A DNA stretch of 36,785 nucleotides, from positions 1 through 36,785 of the forward strand of contig DASPGW010000272.1 of NCBI GenBank assembly GCA_035620395.1, written 5' to 3'. The notes beneath the pieces are model-generated. The model was not told the origin of the DNA, searched no databases, and saw only the letters and a list, made by a program, of their open reading frames with translations. Below, one piece after another: positions 2,922 through 35,935 of the stretch; the first letter of the stretch is position 1; every line of letters begins with the position of its first letter. The DNA is from Desulfuromonadales bacterium (GTDB lineage Bacteria > Desulfobacterota > Desulfuromonadia > Desulfuromonadales > DASPGW01). Made by a program: the position numbers and the translations under genes.

Positions 2922-5378
2922 ATGACTGAAACTGCTGACCTCTGCGCGCATTGCGGGCTTGCCATTGCGCCGCGCGACCTGGTGATCGACACCGTTGCGG
3001 ACGTTCCGCGCCGTTTCTGCTGCCAGGGCTGCCGCGGGGCCTACCGGATCATCACCGGCGCCGGCCTCGGCGGTTTTTACGCCAGACGCGCCTGGACCGA
3101 ACCCGGAGTCCCCGAAGGCGCTTTCACCGCCGCTTACGACGACGCCTTTCTTTCCCGCTTCGTCAGCCAGACGGAGGCGGGCGCCGAGATCTCCTTTTTC
3201 CTTGATGGAATCCGCTGCGCCTCCTGCATCTGGCTCATCGAAAGGATCCTCGGAGCCCTGGACGGAGTGGTCGAGGCCCGGGTCAATTACGGCAACCACA
3301 GGGTGCGCGTCCGTTTTGACCCGCTGCACATCACCCCCTCCGGGATCTTTGCAGCTGTCGGCCGCATCGGCTATCTGCCGCGCCCCTATACCCCAGCCGA
3401 GGCCCAGCGCTGGGCCGAGGCGGAGCGGCGCAGCCTGCTGCTGCGTTTCGGCACCGCCTTTTTCCTCTCCATGCAGCTGATGGGCTACTCGTTTGCCCTC
3501 TACGCCGGCTATTTTCAGGGGATCGACGCCAAAACCCGTGACCTGATGCAGTATCTGGCCGCCCTGGTGACCACGCCGGTCGTCTTCTATGCCGGCTGGC
3601 CGTTCCTGCGCGGCGGCCTGCGCAGCCTCATCAACCGTGTCCCCAGCATGGACCTGCTGATCGCCGTCGGCGTCCTCGCCGCCTACGGGGCCAGCCTGCA
3701 TGCCCTGGTGGCCGGCGGTGAAGTCTACTTCGACACGGCCGCCATGATCGTCACCCTGATCCTCGCCGGCCGCCTCTTTGAAAACGCCGCCAGACGCCGC
3801 GCCTCGGCCGGCGTCGATCGCTTGCTGCGTCTGGCGCCCGATACCGCCAGACGTCTGGAGGGGGACGTCGTCGTGGAAATTGAGGCGGCCCGGCTCGCTC
3901 CGGGGGATGTCATAGTGGTCCTGCCGGGCGAACGGTTTCCGGTCGACGGCCTTCTTCTGGCCGGCGAAACCGAGGTGGACGAGGCCGCCGTCAGTGGCGA
4001 GCCGCTGCCGGTCTGGCGCCGACCGGGAGAACCGGTGACCTCCGGCACCCTCAACCTCTCGGCCGCCGTCAACGTGCGCGTCACCGCTGCCGCTACCGAC
4101 TCCTTCATCGCCCGCATCGCTCGCCTGGTCGAAGAGGCGCAGGCGCGCCGGGCGCCGGTGCAACGGCTCGCCGACCGCGTGGTGGCGATCTTCGTGCCGG
4201 CTGTAGGACTGGTCGCCGCTGCGACCTACGCCTGGTGGACGCTCTTTCCCGGCGGCGGCACGACTCCCCTGCTGGCGGCGGTGGCGGTCCTGGTCATCGC
4301 CTGTCCCTGCGCCCTGGGACTGGCGACGCCGACCGCTGTTCTGGTCGCCACCGGCGCGGGCGCTTCCCAGGGCATCCTCTTTCGCGGGGGGGACGTCCTG
4401 GAGGCGACCGGTCGGCTGAACCTGGCCGCCTTCGACAAGACCGGCACCCTGACCCGGGGCCGTCCCATGGTAGCGGTTATCCGGCCCGCAGTCGGCAGCA
4501 AGGCGGAACTGTTGCGGCTTGCCGCCCTCGCCGAAGGGGGAGCGAACCACCCCCTGGCGCGGGCCATCCTTGCCGAAGCGCAGCGCCGGGGGATTGCCGC
4601 CGGCACCGGCGAAGGCGTGCGATCTCTGCCCGGCCGGGGACTTGAATGCGACACCCCGGGCGGCTTGCTTCGCGTCGGCAGTCGCCCCTTTCTGCAGCAG
4701 GTCGGGATCGAGCTCCCCCCCCCTGACGAAGGGCAGGAGCTGACCGAAGTTCACGTCGCGCTCGGCGCGGAATACCGCGGCGCCCTGTTTCTTACTGACG
4801 GCCTGCGTCCGGAGGCCGCCGAAATCGTCGCCCAACTCAAACGCCTCGGCGTTCGGTCAGCCCAGCGGACCGGCGACAGTTAGGCTGCCGGCGGGCGGAT
4901 CGGTCGCGATCTGGGGATGGAGGCGGTCCACACCGGCATGACGCCGGAGCAGAAAACGGTCTGGGTAAACGCTGCCGTCGGGCGAGGCGATCGGGTCCTC
5001 ATGGTCGGGGACGGCATTAACGACGCTCCGGCCCTGTCGGCGGCAACTGTCGGCTGCGCCATGGCCGGCGGCACCGACATCGCTCTGGAAACTTCCGACC
5101 TGGTCTTCACCCGGCCCGACCTGAGCTGCCTGACGCTGGCACTGGTGCTCGCCCGGCGCACCCTGCGCATCATCCGGCAGAATCTTTTCTGGGCATTTGC
5201 CTACAATGTGCTGGCCATCCCTCTTGCGGCCGCCGGCAAGCTCACCCCGATCCACGCTGCGGCGGCCATGGCCCTGAGTTCGGTCTGCGTGGTGGGCAAC
5301 AGCCTGCGGCTGTGCAAATTTCAGGTCACGGGTCCAAAGTCCCGGGTCCAAGGTCGAGGATCAACACCGAACCCTTAA
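2922..5378 (+). pseudogene. ccoI: copper-transporting P1B-type ATPase (CcoI/FixI), interrupted by an in-frame TAG
   Basis: A copper-exporting ATPase that supplies copper for cbb3 oxidase assembly. Seen in one frame: an N-terminal Cys-rich region (C8-x-x-C11, CCQGC about 33-37), a heavy-metal-associated domain with C99-A-S-C102, membrane helices, the actuator motif SGE (358-360), CPC (461-463), DKTGT with phospho-acceptor D505, the HP dipeptide (543-544) and GDGINDAP (696-703), then two C-terminal helices. Codon 654 (4881-4883) is TAG. Downstream codons stay in the same frame, so this is a nonsense codon, not a frameshift. Without readthrough the product lacks the hinge motif and last helices and should be inactive. 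Residues just before the stop (SAQRTGDS) also depart from the usual hydrophobic strand before TGD. Explanations are a sequencing error, recent decay, or suppression. The last about 15 codons run into an intergenic repeat. Confidence 0.85.
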
Positions 5379-7055: not shown

Positions 7056-7330
7056 TCACTCCCTCCTGCCCGCCTTCTGCAGCAAAAGCTTTCGAAAATC
7101 CTTCGAAACCCACCCGCACGTCCCAGCAGGGAACGCCTCCAACTCGCCGGATTGGCTCTAAAAAGCTGCCTGCAGCGCAGCAGGCAATCTGCACCTGTTC
7201 GGGCACTTTCGTCAGGGATTTGCAGAACTCAGGACTTCCGCAGAGGGGAAGGGGCTCGATAACAAAGGGACTTACGGCGGGAAAACAGACAGCCGGATGG
7301 AAGTAGGTCAGTGGCTGAGGAGGGGCCGAA

Positions 7331-8248
7331 TCAAGGAGAGGGATGCGGAATTCGATGCGGGACAAACTGCTCCCGTCGTTCATCCCAGCGATAACCACCG
7401 GCATCCCATATCTCCTCCAACTGCCGCCAGTTGAGGTGGATATCCTTCATGCTGTCCACGGTATCTGAAGCCTGCAACATCTCGGAGTCGTCGATGACAT
7501 TGTCGCCATTCAGGTCGGCCCATTGAAATGGACCAATACGCAGTTGCGTTGCTCCCGTCACTGGCGAAGGGGTGTTGCGTCCATTGGGATTGGCAACCGC
7601 CTCGCCGCTGAATGTCCCCTCCCTGCCCAGCTCAGCAGCACGATCCACCTTGACCAGGTAGGCAATCATCCGGCGCTCCTCGCCGGGCTTGACGATCCAG
7701 CGGGCTGTACCCTCCTCATTATCGAGGCTCGAGGGAGGAGGGCTGGCCTCGATCAGCTTCCAGCCGGGCGGAAAGTGCTCGCGGAGAATAAATCCCTTCA
7801 TCTCGGAGCCGGCCTCCAACCGAACCTGCACCGGAATACTGCTGCCGGGCGCTGCAAATTTGGGGAGCACCCGCTCGGCCAGCAGACTATCAGCGGGCGC
7901 CTGCTGACGCTGTACAAAGAAGTAGACTGCCGCCAGGACGAAAAGGACCAGAAAAATGGGGAGGGCGCGATAAATCAAACGGCGGGGCGGAAGGGCTGGC
8001 TCCGCCATCGTACAGATACCGGTTCCGCCTTGCAGGATATCCTCGACGGGAGCCTCCAGCGCTTCGGCAAGACGCAGCGCGTTCTCCCGCTTGATGGAAG
8101 GATAGCGGTTGTTCTCCCAGCGGGAAATGGTGTCGGTGGTCACTCCAACCACCTTGGCCACATAAAGCTGGGTCAGTTTTTTTTCTTCGCGGATCCGGCG
8201 GACGGCAGCTCCGTCAAGACAGACCGTCGGGGGGAGCATTTGTGTCAT
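7331..8248 (-). CDS. membrane-anchored XRE-family regulator with extracytoplasmic EF-hand
   Basis: A 305-residue protein with an unusual order of parts. Residues about 15-72 are an XRE/Cro-type helix-turn-helix (RRIREEKKLTQLYVAKVVGV, then TISRWENN). Residues about 93-112 are one membrane helix after a basic PPRR stop. The remaining 190 residues would be outside the cytoplasm: a beta-rich domain (about 125-235) resembling DUF11/CARDB-like folds, then a canonical 12-residue EF-hand loop DLNGDNVIDDSE at 245-256 (Asp/Asn/Asp at 1, 3, 5 and Glu at 12), as in dockerin-type calcium sites. This suggests a one-component sensor: outside ligand or calcium, inside DNA binding. GAGG 6 bases before the ATG supports the start. 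It is transcribed away from the ATP-grasp operon and may regulate it; that link is inferred. Confidence 0.85.
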   Translation of the reverse strand: MTQMLPPTVCLDGAAVRRIREEKKLTQLYVAKVVGVTTDTISRWENNRYPSIKRENALRLAEALEAPVEDILQGGTGICTMAEPALPPRRLIYRALPIFLVLFVLAAVYFFVQRQQAPADSLLAERVLPKFAAPGSSIPVQVRLEAGSEMKGFILREHFPPGWKLIEASPPPSSLDNEEGTARWIVKPGEERRMIAYLVKVDRAAELGREGTFSGEAVANPNGRNTPSPVTGATQLRIGPFQWADLNGDNVIDDSEMLQASDTVDSMKDIHLNWRQLEEIWDAGGYRWDERREQFVPHRIPHPSP

Positions 8249-8573: not shown

Positions 8574-8602
8574 TTGACACAACATTCAAAGGGGAGTATA
8601 TG
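8574..8602 (+). promoter_or_regulatory. strong sigma-70 promoter of the ATP-grasp/KamA operon
   Basis: A perfect TTGACA (8574-8579) and TATATG (8597-8602) lie exactly 17 bases apart, after an A/T-rich upstream stretch. A start near 8609 gives a leader of about 160 bases before the first gene at 8771. Confidence 0.75.
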
Positions 8603-8608
8603 GAGTTT

Positions 8609-8733
8609 GACGGATACGTTCCGGCCGGGAATGCGCAAGAAGACGATGCATAAAAAGCAACCCCTTTTTATAGCCGCCAGCCTCCCAGGCTACCCGGACC
8701 GATGGCACGCATCCGCTGCTCCCCCGTCGGGGG
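8609..8733 (+). ncRNA. structured 5' leader RNA, candidate riboswitch or regulatory element
   Basis: The leader between the promoter and the first ATP-grasp gene is rich in nested pairings. An outer stem pairs 8611-8618 with 8708-8715 (7 of 8, one A-C mismatch). Inside lie hairpins TTCC/GGAA (8619-8622 with 8628-8631), ATAAAAAG/CTTTTTAT (8650-8657 with 8664-8671) and AGCCT/AGGCT (8679-8683 with 8687-8691). ATGC/GCAT (8631-8634 with 8647-8650) is an alternative. A separate CCCCC/GGGGG hairpin (8721-8733) follows, and its C arm could alternatively pair with the AAAGGGG ribosome site at 8758-8764. No U tract follows, so translational control is more likely than termination. I cannot assign it to a known riboswitch class. 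Confidence 0.5.
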
Positions 8734-8770
8734 AACGGTAATACTTCGAAGGCTTTTAAAGGGGTTCACC

Positions 8771-9850
8771 ATGCACGTTGCACTCACCTTCAATCTGCGG
8801 CAGGAGTCCGTCCAGGAAGTGGAACCGCCCGCGGAGCCTCCCTCCGAACCTCCCTCGCCAGTAGCCGACGACATCTACGCCGAGTGGGATGACATTCACA
8901 CGATCAAGGCGGTGGAGGCGGCGTTGGCTTCGCAACATCAGGTCAGCCTCGTCGAGGCCGACCTCGACGCCTTCGAAACCTTTCGCAAGCTTCGTCCCGA
9001 TCTGGTCTTCAACATTGCCGAGGGTCTGCTGGGCAACAGCCGCGAGGCGCAAATCCCGGCGATGCTCGACATGCTCGGCATCCCCTACACCGGCAGCGAT
9101 CCGGTCACCCTCGGCATCTGTCTCGACAAACGGCGGACCAAGGAAATACTTGCCTGCCACGGGGTCCCCACCCCCCGCTTCGCCGTTGTCCATTCCTTGT
9201 CGGAAATCCCCGGCCGCCTGCGCTACCCGCTGATGGTCAAGCCGATCCTCGAAGGCTCCAGCAAAGGAGTTACGGACAAGGCACTGGTGCAGGACCGTCG
9301 TGCACTGCGCCGGCAGATAGAGTGGGTGCTCAACACCTACCAGCAGCCGGCGCTGGTCGAAGAGTTCCTCCCCGGCAGGGAGTTTACCGTCGCCCTGCTC
9401 GGCAACGGCTCGTCACTGCAGGCGCTGCCGATCGTAGAGATCAACTTCGACACCCTGCCGGCAGGGGTGAACCCCATCTATTCCTTTGAAGCCAAATGGC
9501 TCTGGGACCGGGAAGAAAACCCCCTGCAGATCTTCTCCTGTCCTGCTCCAGTGGAACCGCTCCTGAGAAAGAACATCGAAGAGACGTGCAAACGGGCCTT
9601 CCGGGTGCTGGGCTGCCGTGACTGGTGCCGGATCGACGTGCGTCTGGATGCCCGCGGATTGCCCAACATCATCGAACTCAACCCCCTTCCCGGCATCCTG
9701 CCGCGGCCGGAACAGAACAGCTGCTTCCCCAAGGCGGCAAGGGCGGCCGGCCTTTCCTATGAGCAGATGATTCTAGGCGTGGTAGAAGCCGCCAGAGAAC
9801 GGCTCGGATTGAGCCAGGGGGGGCTGGATGAACGTCGCTGTATGCTATAA
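8771..9850 (+). CDS. Ddl-like ATP-grasp ligase (first of a tandem pair)
   Basis: A 359-residue ATP-grasp enzyme related to D-alanine-D-alanine ligase, expected to join a carboxylate to an amine through an acyl phosphate. Catalytic features appear intact: a nucleotide-binding Lys in MVKP (K157), a glycine loop EGSSKG (161-166), E197/E198 in LVEEFLPGREF, R287-I-D289, and the magnesium ligands E302/N304 in IELNPLPG. An unusual acidic, proline-rich insertion (residues 14-40, EPPAEPPSEPPSP) sits near the N-terminus where Ddl has its first substrate loop. The ATG at 8771 follows AAAGGGGTTCACC; an in-frame ATG at 8702 falls inside the structured leader and has no ribosome site. The 23-base overlap with the second ligase indicates coupling. 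It is probably not the housekeeping Ddl, since no cell-wall genes are nearby. Confidence 0.85.
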   Translation: MHVALTFNLRQESVQEVEPPAEPPSEPPSPVADDIYAEWDDIHTIKAVEAALASQHQVSLVEADLDAFETFRKLRPDLVFNIAEGLLGNSREAQIPAMLDMLGIPYTGSDPVTLGICLDKRRTKEILACHGVPTPRFAVVHSLSEIPGRLRYPLMVKPILEGSSKGVTDKALVQDRRALRRQIEWVLNTYQQPALVEEFLPGREFTVALLGNGSSLQALPIVEINFDTLPAGVNPIYSFEAKWLWDREENPLQIFSCPAPVEPLLRKNIEETCKRAFRVLGCRDWCRIDVRLDARGLPNIIELNPLPGILPRPEQNSCFPKAARAAGLSYEQMILGVVEAARERLGLSQGGLDERRCML

Positions 9851-10844
9851 CCGTGTCCCTCCCAAGCTGTTCAAGGGGGAGGCCGGCGACCGAATTTCCG
9901 AGAAGGGGGCCGAAACCGAGGCCCGCGCCGTCAGCAAGGCCCTCAAGGAGCTTGGGCACGCACCCAAGCTGGTCCCCCTTGGTGCCGATGTCGCCAAGTT
10001 CATCGATGATCTGCGTACCGCGGCACCGGAGGCGGTCTTCAACCTCTGCGAAGGGTTCTGGGGCGACAGCCGAAAGGAAATGCACGTCGCTGCCCTTCTC
10101 GACCTGCTCGGCTACGCCTACACCGGAGCCACCCCGCTTTCTCTTGGTCTTACCCAGGACAAGGTCCGCACCAAAGACCTGCTGATGCGCCACGGCCTGC
10201 CCACCCCCAAGTACATCCTGGTCAAGATGGGCGAACATTTTCCCAAGACCCGCGACCTGGCCTATCCCCTGATCATCAAGCCGCGATTCGAAGACGCCTC
10301 GCTGGGTATCACCCTCGACAGCATCGTCGAGAGCGAAGCCGCCCTGAAAAGACGCATCCAGTACGTGCACGACACCTACCATCAGGGTGCGCTGGTCGAA
10401 GAATTCATTGAAGGGCGGGAAATCAATGCTGCAGTGCTTGGCAACGCCCCCTTTGAGGCGCTGCCACTCTCCGAAATCCGTTTTCAGCCGGGGCTGAGCC
10501 GGTCCATCGTCAGCTACAACGGCAAGTGGCTGGAGGAATCGGCGGAATACGCGAAGACCGAACCGGTCTGCCCCGCGCCCCTCAAGGCCAAGGAGGAATT
10601 CCTCCTTCGGGATGTCGCCCTGCGTGCCTACAAGATTCTTGAATGCCGTGACTATGCCCGGGTCGACATCCGCCTGCGCAACGACGTACCGTATATTCTC
10701 GAAGTCAACGCCAATCCCGATATTGCTCCCGGCGCCGGCCTGGCCAGGGCCGCACGGGCGGCTGGACTGACCTACCCGAAGCTGATCGACCGCATCCTGC
10801 AGATGGCGCTCAAGCGCAAGGAGACCGTGCATGCGAAACCTTAA
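9828..10844 (+). CDS. Ddl-like ATP-grasp ligase (second of a tandem pair)
   Basis: A 338-residue ATP-grasp ligase, clearly diverged from its upstream neighbour but with the same fold. Visible residues are K151 in IIKP, the loop EDASLG (155-160) in place of the EGSS loop of true Ddl, E191/E192 in LVEEFIEGREI, R278-V-D280, and E292/N294 in LEVNANPDIAPG. Loss of the second loop serine and the NANPD pattern suggest a substrate other than D-alanine. Two such ligases in tandem could add two units in sequence or form a heterodimer. It overlaps the preceding gene by 23 bases and the acetyltransferase by 14 bases. The substrate is unknown. Confidence 0.85.
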   Translation: MNVAVCYNRVPPKLFKGEAGDRISEKGAETEARAVSKALKELGHAPKLVPLGADVAKFIDDLRTAAPEAVFNLCEGFWGDSRKEMHVAALLDLLGYAYTGATPLSLGLTQDKVRTKDLLMRHGLPTPKYILVKMGEHFPKTRDLAYPLIIKPRFEDASLGITLDSIVESEAALKRRIQYVHDTYHQGALVEEFIEGREINAAVLGNAPFEALPLSEIRFQPGLSRSIVSYNGKWLEESAEYAKTEPVCPAPLKAKEEFLLRDVALRAYKILECRDYARVDIRLRNDVPYILEVNANPDIAPGAGLARAARAAGLTYPKLIDRILQMALKRKETVHAKP

Positions 10845-11313
10845 GCGCGAGGACCTGCCCGATCTCATTCGGGTCCTCAACGAGACCGGGGCATTTAACG
10901 ACATCGAAGTTGGCTGTGCCGTGGAACTGCTCGGCATCGTTCTCGATGACCCGAACCAGAAAGACTATATCGTGGCCGTCGCCGAGGATGACGGGCGGGC
11001 CGTCGGCTATGTGCTCTACGGGCCGGTGCCGTTGACCGAGGGAAATTTCGACCTCTACTGGATCGCCACCGATCCCAGGGTACAAGGGAGAGGCTTTGGC
11101 CGGAAACTGCTGGCCCACGCCGAAGCGGATGCCCGTACCCGCGGCGGCAGAATGATCTGCCTGGAAACCTCTTCCCAAGGCGGATATGAGCGTACCCGGC
11201 TTTTTTACGAACAGGCCGGCTACGTCGAAGAATCGAGGATTCTTGATTTTTACCGCCCTGGCGATGATCGCATCACGTACGTTAAACGCTTTTCCACCAA
11301 GGAGAAGAGCTGA
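10831..11313 (+). CDS. GNAT-family N-acetyltransferase
   Basis: A 160-residue single-domain GNAT. The acetyl-CoA-binding motif is VQGRGFGRKLL at 84-94 (Q/R-x-x-G-x-G/A pattern), after the beta-strand DLYWIATDP. The C-terminal part has the expected LETSSQGGYERTRLFYEQAGY segment (motif B). It would transfer an acetyl group to an amine. Its place between two ATP-grasp ligases and a lysine-2,3-aminomutase-like enzyme suggests it caps an amino group of the product, as in the known compatible solutes N-acetyl-beta-lysine and N-acetylglutaminylglutamine amide; this is inference. It is shorter than the AblB beta-lysine acetyltransferases. It overlaps the previous gene by 14 bases; kamA starts 5 bases after its stop codon. 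Confidence 0.87.
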   Translation: MRNLKREDLPDLIRVLNETGAFNDIEVGCAVELLGIVLDDPNQKDYIVAVAEDDGRAVGYVLYGPVPLTEGNFDLYWIATDPRVQGRGFGRKLLAHAEADARTRGGRMICLETSSQGGYERTRLFYEQAGYVEESRILDFYRPGDDRITYVKRFSTKEKS

Positions 11314-11317
11314 GACG

Positions 11318-12400
11318 ATGGAGACCTGGCAAAGACTTTTGCAGGCAAGCGTCACCCGGCCCGGCGACCTGACCCGCCGGTTTGGCGTCGACCCCCGTCC
11401 CCTGGAGGCGGTAGCCGAGCGCTACCCCATGCGCGTCAACCCCTATTATCTCAGCCTCATCCAATCGGTCGACGATCCGATCTGGCGGCAGGCCGTTCCC
11501 GCCGCGGACGAACTGCACGACCAGGTCTGCCCCGCCGACCCTCTGGAGGAGGAAAACCAGAGTCCGGTCCCCAACCTGATCCACCGCTACCCCGACCGGG
11601 CGCTCTTTCTGGTCTGTTCCGAATGCGCCATGTATTGCCGTTTCTGCACCCGCAAGCGCAAGGTTGGCGGAGAGAACATGGTCATCAACCGCGAAACTCT
11701 CGAGGAGGGCCTTCGCTACCTCCGGAACCATCCGGAAATCCGGGACGTCATTCTCTCCGGTGGCGACCCCCTGCTGCTCGCCGACGAGCGTCTGGAGTGG
11801 ATTCTCAAGGAACTGCGGGCCATTCCGAGCGTGGAGATCATCCGCATCGGGACCCGGGTGCCAGTCGTCCTGCCGCAGCGGATCACGCCGGCACTGGTGC
11901 GGATCCTGCGACGCTTCCACCCCCTCTACATCAACACCCACTTCAACCATCCGGCCGAGATCACCGACCTCTCGGCCCGGGCCTGCGGCCGACTCGTCGA
12001 TGCGGGCATCCCCCTGGGAAACCAGTCGGTACTGCTGCGCGGGGTGAACGATGACCCCGGGACAATGAAGCGGCTGATGCAGAAGCTGCTCGCCATCCGG
12101 GTCAAGCCCTACTACATCTACCAAGCCGACATGGTGCAGGGGACCGATCATTTCCGCACGACCGTCGAGGAAGGGATCGGCATTATCCGCGCCCTGCGCG
12201 GGCACACTTCCGGCCTGGCGGTTCCCGCTTACGTCATCGACGCCCCGGGCGGGGGAGGCAAGATCCCGCTTCTCCCCGACTATTTGCAGGAATTGGGCGA
12301 TGACGTCGTGCTGAAGAATTATCTGGGTGAAACTTACCATTATCGCAACGCTTCCCCGGCAAAGGAAGGCGAACGCCAGGATGATGCCATAGGACAATGA
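11318..12400 (+). CDS. kamA: lysine-2,3-aminomutase-like radical SAM, PLP-dependent enzyme
   Basis: A 360-residue member of the KamA/AblA family, which moves an alpha-amino group to the beta carbon using a [4Fe-4S] cluster, S-adenosylmethionine and PLP. The cluster motif is C103-x3-C107-x2-C110 within CAMYCRFCTRKRKVG. SAM contacts are in SGGDPLL (from 147). The PLP lysine is K315 in APGGGGK. D271 (YQADMVQG) and D308 (VIDAPGG) sit where C. subterminale KAM uses two aspartates to hold the lysine side-chain amine, so lysine is a reasonable substrate; glutamate aminomutase and EpmB are alternatives. The C-terminus lacks the long Cys-rich zinc extension of some KAMs. The ATG at 11318 is chosen over an upstream in-frame ATG inside the GNAT gene. 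The stop overlaps the next start (ATGA). Confidence 0.87.
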   Translation: METWQRLLQASVTRPGDLTRRFGVDPRPLEAVAERYPMRVNPYYLSLIQSVDDPIWRQAVPAADELHDQVCPADPLEEENQSPVPNLIHRYPDRALFLVCSECAMYCRFCTRKRKVGGENMVINRETLEEGLRYLRNHPEIRDVILSGGDPLLLADERLEWILKELRAIPSVEIIRIGTRVPVVLPQRITPALVRILRRFHPLYINTHFNHPAEITDLSARACGRLVDAGIPLGNQSVLLRGVNDDPGTMKRLMQKLLAIRVKPYYIYQADMVQGTDHFRTTVEEGIGIIRALRGHTSGLAVPAYVIDAPGGGGKIPLLPDYLQELGDDVVLKNYLGETYHYRNASPAKEGERQDDAIGQ

Positions 12401-13044
12401 TCAAGGGTCTTTTCTGGGACAATGACGGCATTCTGGTGGACACGGAGCCCCTCTATTTCCGCGCCACCAGAGAGGTTCTGGCCGGATTCGGCGTCGAGCT
12501 GACGCAGCAGCAGTTTGTCGACATCTCGCTGAAAGACGGCAGCAGCCTCTTCTCGCTTGTCGCGGACAACCTGACAACGGCAGAACTGGGTGCGGCTCGG
12601 CGGTCCAGAGACGAGCGATATGCCGAACTGCTGCGGGAGGAAACCAGGATAATACCGGGAGTCGAGGAAACTTTGGCCGCCCTGCACGGGAGGGTAAGGA
12701 TGGCCATCGTGACCAGTTCACGGTCCGAGCACTTCGCTCTCATCCACGACCGTTCAGGATTGCTCAAATACTTCGATTTCGTTTTGACCCGCGATGACTA
12801 CGTCAGCTCCAAACCGCACCCCGAACCGTATCTGACGGCCTTGCGCAAAAGCGGCCTGCGCCCCGAAGATTGCCGGGTTATCGAGGATTCGGAAAGGGGC
12901 CTGCTCGCGGCGTGCCGGGCCGGGCTGCGCTGCCTCGTCATCCCCGGCAAGTTGACCCGGAGCGGGGATTTCTCTTCGGCAGAGCGGGTCCTGACCGACA
13001 TCCGCGAGGTGCCCGCCGCCCTGCAGGACCTTCCGCCCGGTTAA
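12397..13044 (+). CDS. HAD-superfamily phosphatase (beta-phosphoglucomutase-like)
   Basis: A 215-residue HAD hydrolase of subfamily IA. Motif I is WDNDGILVDTE with nucleophile D8 and acid/base D10. The cap domain covers about 16-80, motif II is IVTSS (about 109-113), motif III includes the Lys of SSKPHPEPY (about 135), and motif IV is IEDSERG. Asn at position 9 replaces the usual hydrophobic residue between the aspartates, which is unusual but tolerated. Members remove phosphate from sugar phosphates or other small metabolites. It overlaps kamA by four bases (ATGA) and closes the five-gene operon, so it may dephosphorylate an intermediate or the final product of that pathway; the substrate is unknown. 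Confidence 0.82.
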   Translation: MIKGLFWDNDGILVDTEPLYFRATREVLAGFGVELTQQQFVDISLKDGSSLFSLVADNLTTAELGAARRSRDERYAELLREETRIIPGVEETLAALHGRVRMAIVTSSRSEHFALIHDRSGLLKYFDFVLTRDDYVSSKPHPEPYLTALRKSGLRPEDCRVIEDSERGLLAACRAGLRCLVIPGKLTRSGDFSSAERVLTDIREVPAALQDLPPG

Positions 13045-35801: not shown

Positions 35802-35821
35802 TACCACTCACAACTGAAAAC

Positions 35822-35908
35822 GCCCTAGGGGAGTTTTACACTGAGAGTCCCGCGCGAGCGGGGCGACCCTTTGAACCTGATCCGGGTCATGCCGGCGTAG
35901 GGAAGCGG
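35822..35908 (+). ncRNA. TPP (thiamine pyrophosphate) riboswitch
   Basis: The element has the conserved THI-box blocks in order: GGGGAG, CTGAGA (35841-35846), ACCCTTTGAACCTGATC (about 35866-35882), GGGTCATGCC and the closing GGCGTAGGGAAG. These are the thiamine-binding core and P4/P5 regions of the known TPP aptamer. It lies directly upstream of a ThiF-type gene, as expected, and probably represses it when TPP is abundant. Confidence 0.93.
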
Positions 35909-35935
35909 CGCGTACCACCGGAAAACCAAATCCGG

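Follow-up and report, generated by a model that had tools for sequence, protein, structure and literature searches.

The leader that precedes an ATP-grasp/lysine 2,3-aminomutase operon in the window (the whole stretch of DNA analysed, 36,785 nucleotides from a Desulfuromonadales bacterium) is almost certainly a conserved structured cis-regulatory RNA, and probably controls access to the Shine-Dalgarno (SD) sequence of the first gene. Judged from its sequence, it may well represent a previously undescribed class of riboswitch-like leaders that act on translation by strand exchange over the SD.

Promoter, leader and regulated operon

The promoter (8574-8602, + strand) consists of a -35 element, TTGACA (8574-8579), a 17-nt spacer and a -10 element, TATATG (8597-8602). 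It had been described in an earlier note as near-perfect, which is true of the -35; the -10 matches TATAAT at only four of six positions, so that the promoter was missed by a strict scan. The motif recurs with similar spacing in homologous leaders, TTGAC[A/G] being found at a similar distance in all 45 that are not truncated (one is). From promoter spacing the leader was taken to start at about 8609, and it runs to 8770, the first gene starting at ATG 8771, in agreement with the gap of about 160 bases reported earlier. The covariance model R1, which has the window sequence among its 27 training sequences, matched the window at 8608-8716 (83.7 bits).

A scan of the leader revealed no terminator-like site before the first gene, as the earlier note had stated, and so no intrinsic terminator of the kind needed for transcription attenuation. 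No conserved short reading frame was evident in the leader, judged from alignments alone, in which indels do not come in threes. Starting instead at the in-frame ATG 8702, the first ligase would gain 23 codons, which run through hairpin P5 (8702-8770, + strand). ATG 8771 is favoured as the start because the SD is conserved.

The operon (+ strand) encodes a D-Ala-D-Ala ligase-like ATP-grasp ligase, the first gene controlled (8771-9850), a second ATP-grasp ligase (9828-10844), a GNAT-family acetyltransferase (10831-11313), a lysine 2,3-aminomutase-like radical SAM enzyme (11186-12400, although its true start may be inside the frame) and a HAD-family hydrolase (12397-13044). Alignment of the aminomutase to 2a5h showed that D293, D330 and K337 are kept. 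In lysine 2,3-aminomutase the two aspartates bind the lysine side chain and K337 binds PLP, thus formation of beta-lysine is likely. A capped beta-lysine peptide may be what the operon makes, given its GNAT protein and its two D-Ala-D-Ala ligase-like enzymes. Derivatives of beta-lysine act as osmolytes (PMC3543383, PMC9337991).

In other classes, the upstream regions that were read place distant ATP-grasp orthologues directly after another gene and without the leader. At three such loci (L169, L171 and L172, upstream of about 1480) the preceding gene reads by eye as a pyruvoyl-dependent arginine decarboxylase, a hint that the pathway may involve amines or polyamines.

Conservation and folded core

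Counting the window's own, 47 genomes of the order have an orthologue of the first ATP-grasp gene with at least 64% identity, and 46 of these orthologues are preceded by a leader of about 150 to 170 nt. For the 47th (G089), the leader lies about 0.8 kb upstream of the gene, with inserted DNA between. This insert, between leader and SD (L086, about 1276-1984), has terminator-like repeats and an IS200-like look; it resembles a small transposon and is a natural separation of the core from its expression platform. Over the first 110 leader bases mean identity was 53%; over a stretch of equal length upstream of the promoter it was 31%.

R1, built from 27 sequences, recovered 17 leaders on which it had not been trained (E-values 4e-25 to 3e-4) and missed two divergent ones (L026 and L028). 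Among the 277 genomes of the class that were searched it matched in 46, all of one order, and roughly one in three searched genomes of that order has the operon. In a sample of the phylum, R1 also matched one genome outside the class, in which promoter, leader, ligases (79% and 69%) and aminomutase (82%) occur together, suggesting transfer of the whole cassette. Searching the window's own genome with R1 gave no second copy above noise; matches on contigs C18 (22.9 bits) and C248 (20.8 bits) were discarded, neither having a visible promoter or SD. Pattern matches in Calditrichia and Verrucomicrobiaceae (L094 and L103) were not confirmed by the covariance model.

The fold of the window leader on its own is no more stable than that of dinucleotide shuffles (z = -0.33, with 74 of 200 shuffled sequences doing as well), so single-sequence folding was dropped as evidence and structural significance comes from comparison only. 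When cores were folded separately, most shared one plan: a two-part stem P1 with an asymmetric 3' bulge, an unpaired junction, and hairpins P3 and P4. In the window (all + strand) the 5' strand of P1 spans 8611-8629 (outer 8611-8621, inner 8623-8629) and its covarying 3' strand 8693-8715 (inner 8693-8700, outer 8705-8715). The outer stem proposed previously, 8611-8618 with 8708-8715, forms seven of eight pairs by inspection and is in register with conserved P1. Next comes the junction (8630-8647), conserved and single-stranded, of GCGCAAGA(C)GA type in the alignments and of GCGCAAGACGA type in most core folds, which is a candidate ligand-binding element. In alignment and core folds, P3 is made up of a 5' arm, GC-AUAAAAAG (8648-8657), a loop, CAACCC (8658-8663; consensus CRACCC in the core folds of homologues), and a 3' arm, CUUUUUAU-A-GC (8664-8674); they also give P4 as AGCCU-CCC-AGGCU (8679-8691, arms 8679-8683 and 8687-8691). 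Comparison of homologues places P5, UCCCCC-GUC-GGGGGA, at 8720-8734 (arms 8720-8725 and 8729-8734); its place recurs in most of them and its sequence varies. The inner hairpins and the CCCCC/GGGGG hairpin seen before are present as P3, P4 and P5.

Covarying pairs in homologous leaders, on which the earlier note had made its reading depend, were looked for and found. Across 48 aligned copies, 17 of the 27 core pairs had changed on both sides, including 13 of 13 modelled P1 pairs. Double-sided cells numbered 109 (34.8 ± 4.7 when shuffled, 14 to 42 with the pairing slid) and pairing cells made up 82.8% (74.6% shuffled, 38 to 56% slid), counts that are inflated and lean towards structure because the copies share ancestry and their cores were aligned by fitting them to the model. 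The slid controls and the replacements in P1 (U-A to G-C, A-U and C-G) nevertheless appear hard to explain otherwise. In an all-against-all covariation ranking, nine of the 27 model pairs came among the first 60 out of several thousand column pairs (the hypergeometric figure for this ranking assumes about 7000 pairs). P3 is mostly invariant in sequence and has little support from covariation.

Alternative pairings over the ribosome site

The loop and 3' arm of P3 contain an anti-SD strand, AACCCCUUUUUAUAGCC (8659-8675, + strand), able to form 8 to 15 contiguous base pairs with the SD strand, GGCUUUUAAAGGGGUU (8751-8766, + strand), in all 46 leaders. At its centre RACCCC in the P3 loop complements GGGGUU in the SD of the first gene, both motifs being present in 46/46, with six invariant pairs and a mean of 10.7 contiguous pairs. 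Upstream of the SD, GGC(U) forms a second block that is complementary to GCC after P3; it occurs in 42/46, compared with about five expected from shuffles, and by inspection, the four leaders without GGC can pair GCUGG with CCAGC instead. Pairing of leaders with their own SD beat all 2000 re-assignments between species (10.7 against 9.9, maximum 10.6). As the six core anti-SD/SD pairs barely vary, almost no covariation comes from them.

Since it is complementary to the SD strand and also pairs within P3, strand 8659-8675 has two possible partners. One is the 5' arm of P3, in the local pairing AUAAAAAG/CUUUUUAU; the other is GGCUUUUAAAGGGGUU, which covers the SD. Full pairing with one precludes full pairing with the other, and through this shared strand the sequence provides the mutually exclusive pairings over the SD that characterize an expression platform. 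The CCCCC arm of P5, put forward earlier as a competitor for the ribosome site, does not fit this role, as the sequence of P5 is not conserved and the conserved anti-SD is 8659-8675 (46/46). When whole leaders are folded, the predicted minimum-energy structure includes a helix sequestering the SD in 35 of 46; when the core is folded alone, most sequences give P1/P3/P4. How far apart the states lie in predicted energy differs widely from species to species. As far as can be read from sequence, the anatomy of the leader is that of a strand-exchange translational switch.

Without a signal, the long anti-SD/SD helix would form and hide the ribosome site (OFF). Binding of a ligand at the P1/P3/P4 junction would stabilize P3, whose 5' arm rivals the SD for the anti-SD strand, and so free the SD for translation (ON). 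In a less favoured scheme of opposite polarity, the bound core would offer its CCCC loop to the SD, giving a pseudoknot across P1; such a loop-SD pseudoknot could form with P1 persisting, as both helices cross topologically.

Leader copies, rival readings and known RNAs

Three diverged copies of the leader precede other operons, and mgtE lies immediately upstream of two of these copies. In G047 the order is mgtE, leader, short ORF, mgtC and a C39/RLAN-RimK/GCS2/FGase operon; in G083 it is leader, short ORF and a C39/RLAN-RimK/GCS2/FGase operon; and in G074, a complete genome without a close ATP-grasp orthologue, it is mgtE, leader, short ORF and a DUF5698/DUF2179 gene. The contexts of the leader are therefore ATP-grasp/KamA, MgtC with C39/RimK/GCS2/FGase, and DUF5698, which may be functionally linked, although the non-canonical copies number only three. 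Searches at 23 further C39/RimK/GCS2 operons and 29 further DUF5698 genes of the order found no leader, which makes the extra contexts few in number and probably of recent origin; a second covariance model gave no further convincing context. The non-canonical leaders end at short ORFs of about 30 to 47 codons, unrelated in sequence, between the SD and the next gene (L081, about 1808-1955; L082, about 2036-2164; L083, about 7330-7430, - strand). In L083 (7463-7565, - strand), the copy before the DUF5698/DUF2179 gene of G074, P3 is kept and the CCCC anti-SD loop is lost; thus, that copy may not switch by anti-SD/SD exchange.

We lean towards a ligand-binding riboswitch rather than a protein-bound leader. 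A product of the operon or a regulator that bound P1/P3/P4 could shift the anti-SD equilibrium, by autoregulation or as a global regulator, and both the almost exclusive association with a single operon of a single order, which suits a lineage-specific protein regulator, and the movement of the whole cassette together are consistent with this. However, copies before unrelated operons, including that in G074, argue against autoregulation by the operon's enzymes, an argument that does not reach a global RNA-binding protein, and overall a protein-binding leader seems unlikely. Together with the out-of-class cassette, the same diverged copies favour a diffusible signal over purely local autoregulation. 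From the regulated genes and the proximity of mgtE, this signal is suggested to be ionic, osmotic or a pathway product, the leading idea because beta-lysine derivatives are osmolytes and Na+ riboswitches act on ablA elsewhere.

The same osmotic and ionic contexts (mgtE, mgtC and beta-lysine) and an AU-rich P3 in competition with the SD helix would also suit a physical sensor that needs no ligand, either an RNA thermometer or an RNA whose helix stability registers ionic strength or Mg2+. A simple thermometer, however, needs no conserved unpaired junction sequence, and the differing energy gap between species also makes such a sensor improbable. Conservation of the promoter along with the leader could reflect a constitutive 5' UTR that affects mRNA stability or enhances translation without switching; this is very improbable, as compensatory changes in P1 and strict loop-SD complementarity are hard to explain without alternative pairing. 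Membership of GEMM-I or another known riboswitch family can be practically dismissed. The likeness to the 3' part of GEMM raised in the earlier note is superficial, and the Rfam covariance search proposed there, run with Rfam 15, matched neither GEMM nor any other family above gathering score in the leader and gave no match in ten related loci. Sub-threshold matches around the leader (E up to 10) were trivial and on the opposite strand. The Na+-I (DUF1646) motif, which we take to be included in the Rfam 15 library, also had no match in the leader or the ten loci. The leader is therefore assigned to no named class, and would work like anti-SD translational riboswitches.

In the preQ1 and SAM-II translational riboswitches part of the aptamer domain itself sequesters the SD. 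An element of this type also appears to sequester the SD here, although sequence and fold are unrelated and, unlike in those riboswitches, the anti-SD is formed by the loop and one arm of a hairpin that is itself enclosed by a stem. The Na+-I riboswitch (DUF1646 motif) can control the lysine 2,3-aminomutase gene ablA for the osmolyte beta-lysine, as well as genes that carry magnesium or potassium transporter annotations (PMC9337991); the leader similarly precedes lysine 2,3-aminomutase-type and Mg2+-linked genes. In contrast, the reported ablA case involves transcription termination (PMC9337991), whereas the window leader has no terminator and targets the SD. The proX motif (riboswitch candidate SRC-29-1; PMC8632094) shares a link to osmoprotectant genes and a ribosome site that RNA can occlude, but proX encodes a betaine/proline betaine transporter (PMC8632094), and the comparison implies no homology. 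The Geobacter yjbM and nifV motifs (PMC11109978) are likewise rare, complex leaders of related bacteria near or containing the SD, but have other genes and three to four representatives each; the main text of that paper holds no mention of an aminomutase or ATP-grasp leader. No published description of the present leader was found in the literature searched.

The earlier proposal of a cis-regulatory element, possibly reporting a signal related to the pathway product, gains from covariation, lineage-wide conservation, SD sequestration and the copies before other operons. A fuller but tentative reading is that of a new riboswitch class, mostly of one order and horizontally mobile with its promoter, which senses an ion, an osmolyte or a beta-lysine-derived peptide and coordinates synthesis of an osmolyte-type peptide with Mg2+-linked genes through strand exchange at the SD. 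If true, it would add to the few known RNA sensors of osmolyte or ion homeostasis. The leader is a well-supported candidate for an orphan riboswitch, with a clear expression platform and about 50 known examples, and offers a handle on an uncharacterized two-ligase/aminomutase pathway, and the identity of its ligand would reveal the operon's signal and perhaps its product.

Elsewhere in the window, an ordinary TPP riboswitch (35817-35920, + strand) scored above the Rfam gathering score. A copper-type P-type ATPase (2922-5378, + strand) is apparently split into two open frames, 2922-4883 covering model positions 1-412 and 4917-5378 positions 428-560, which appears to be a frameshift, an assembly error or a truly broken gene.
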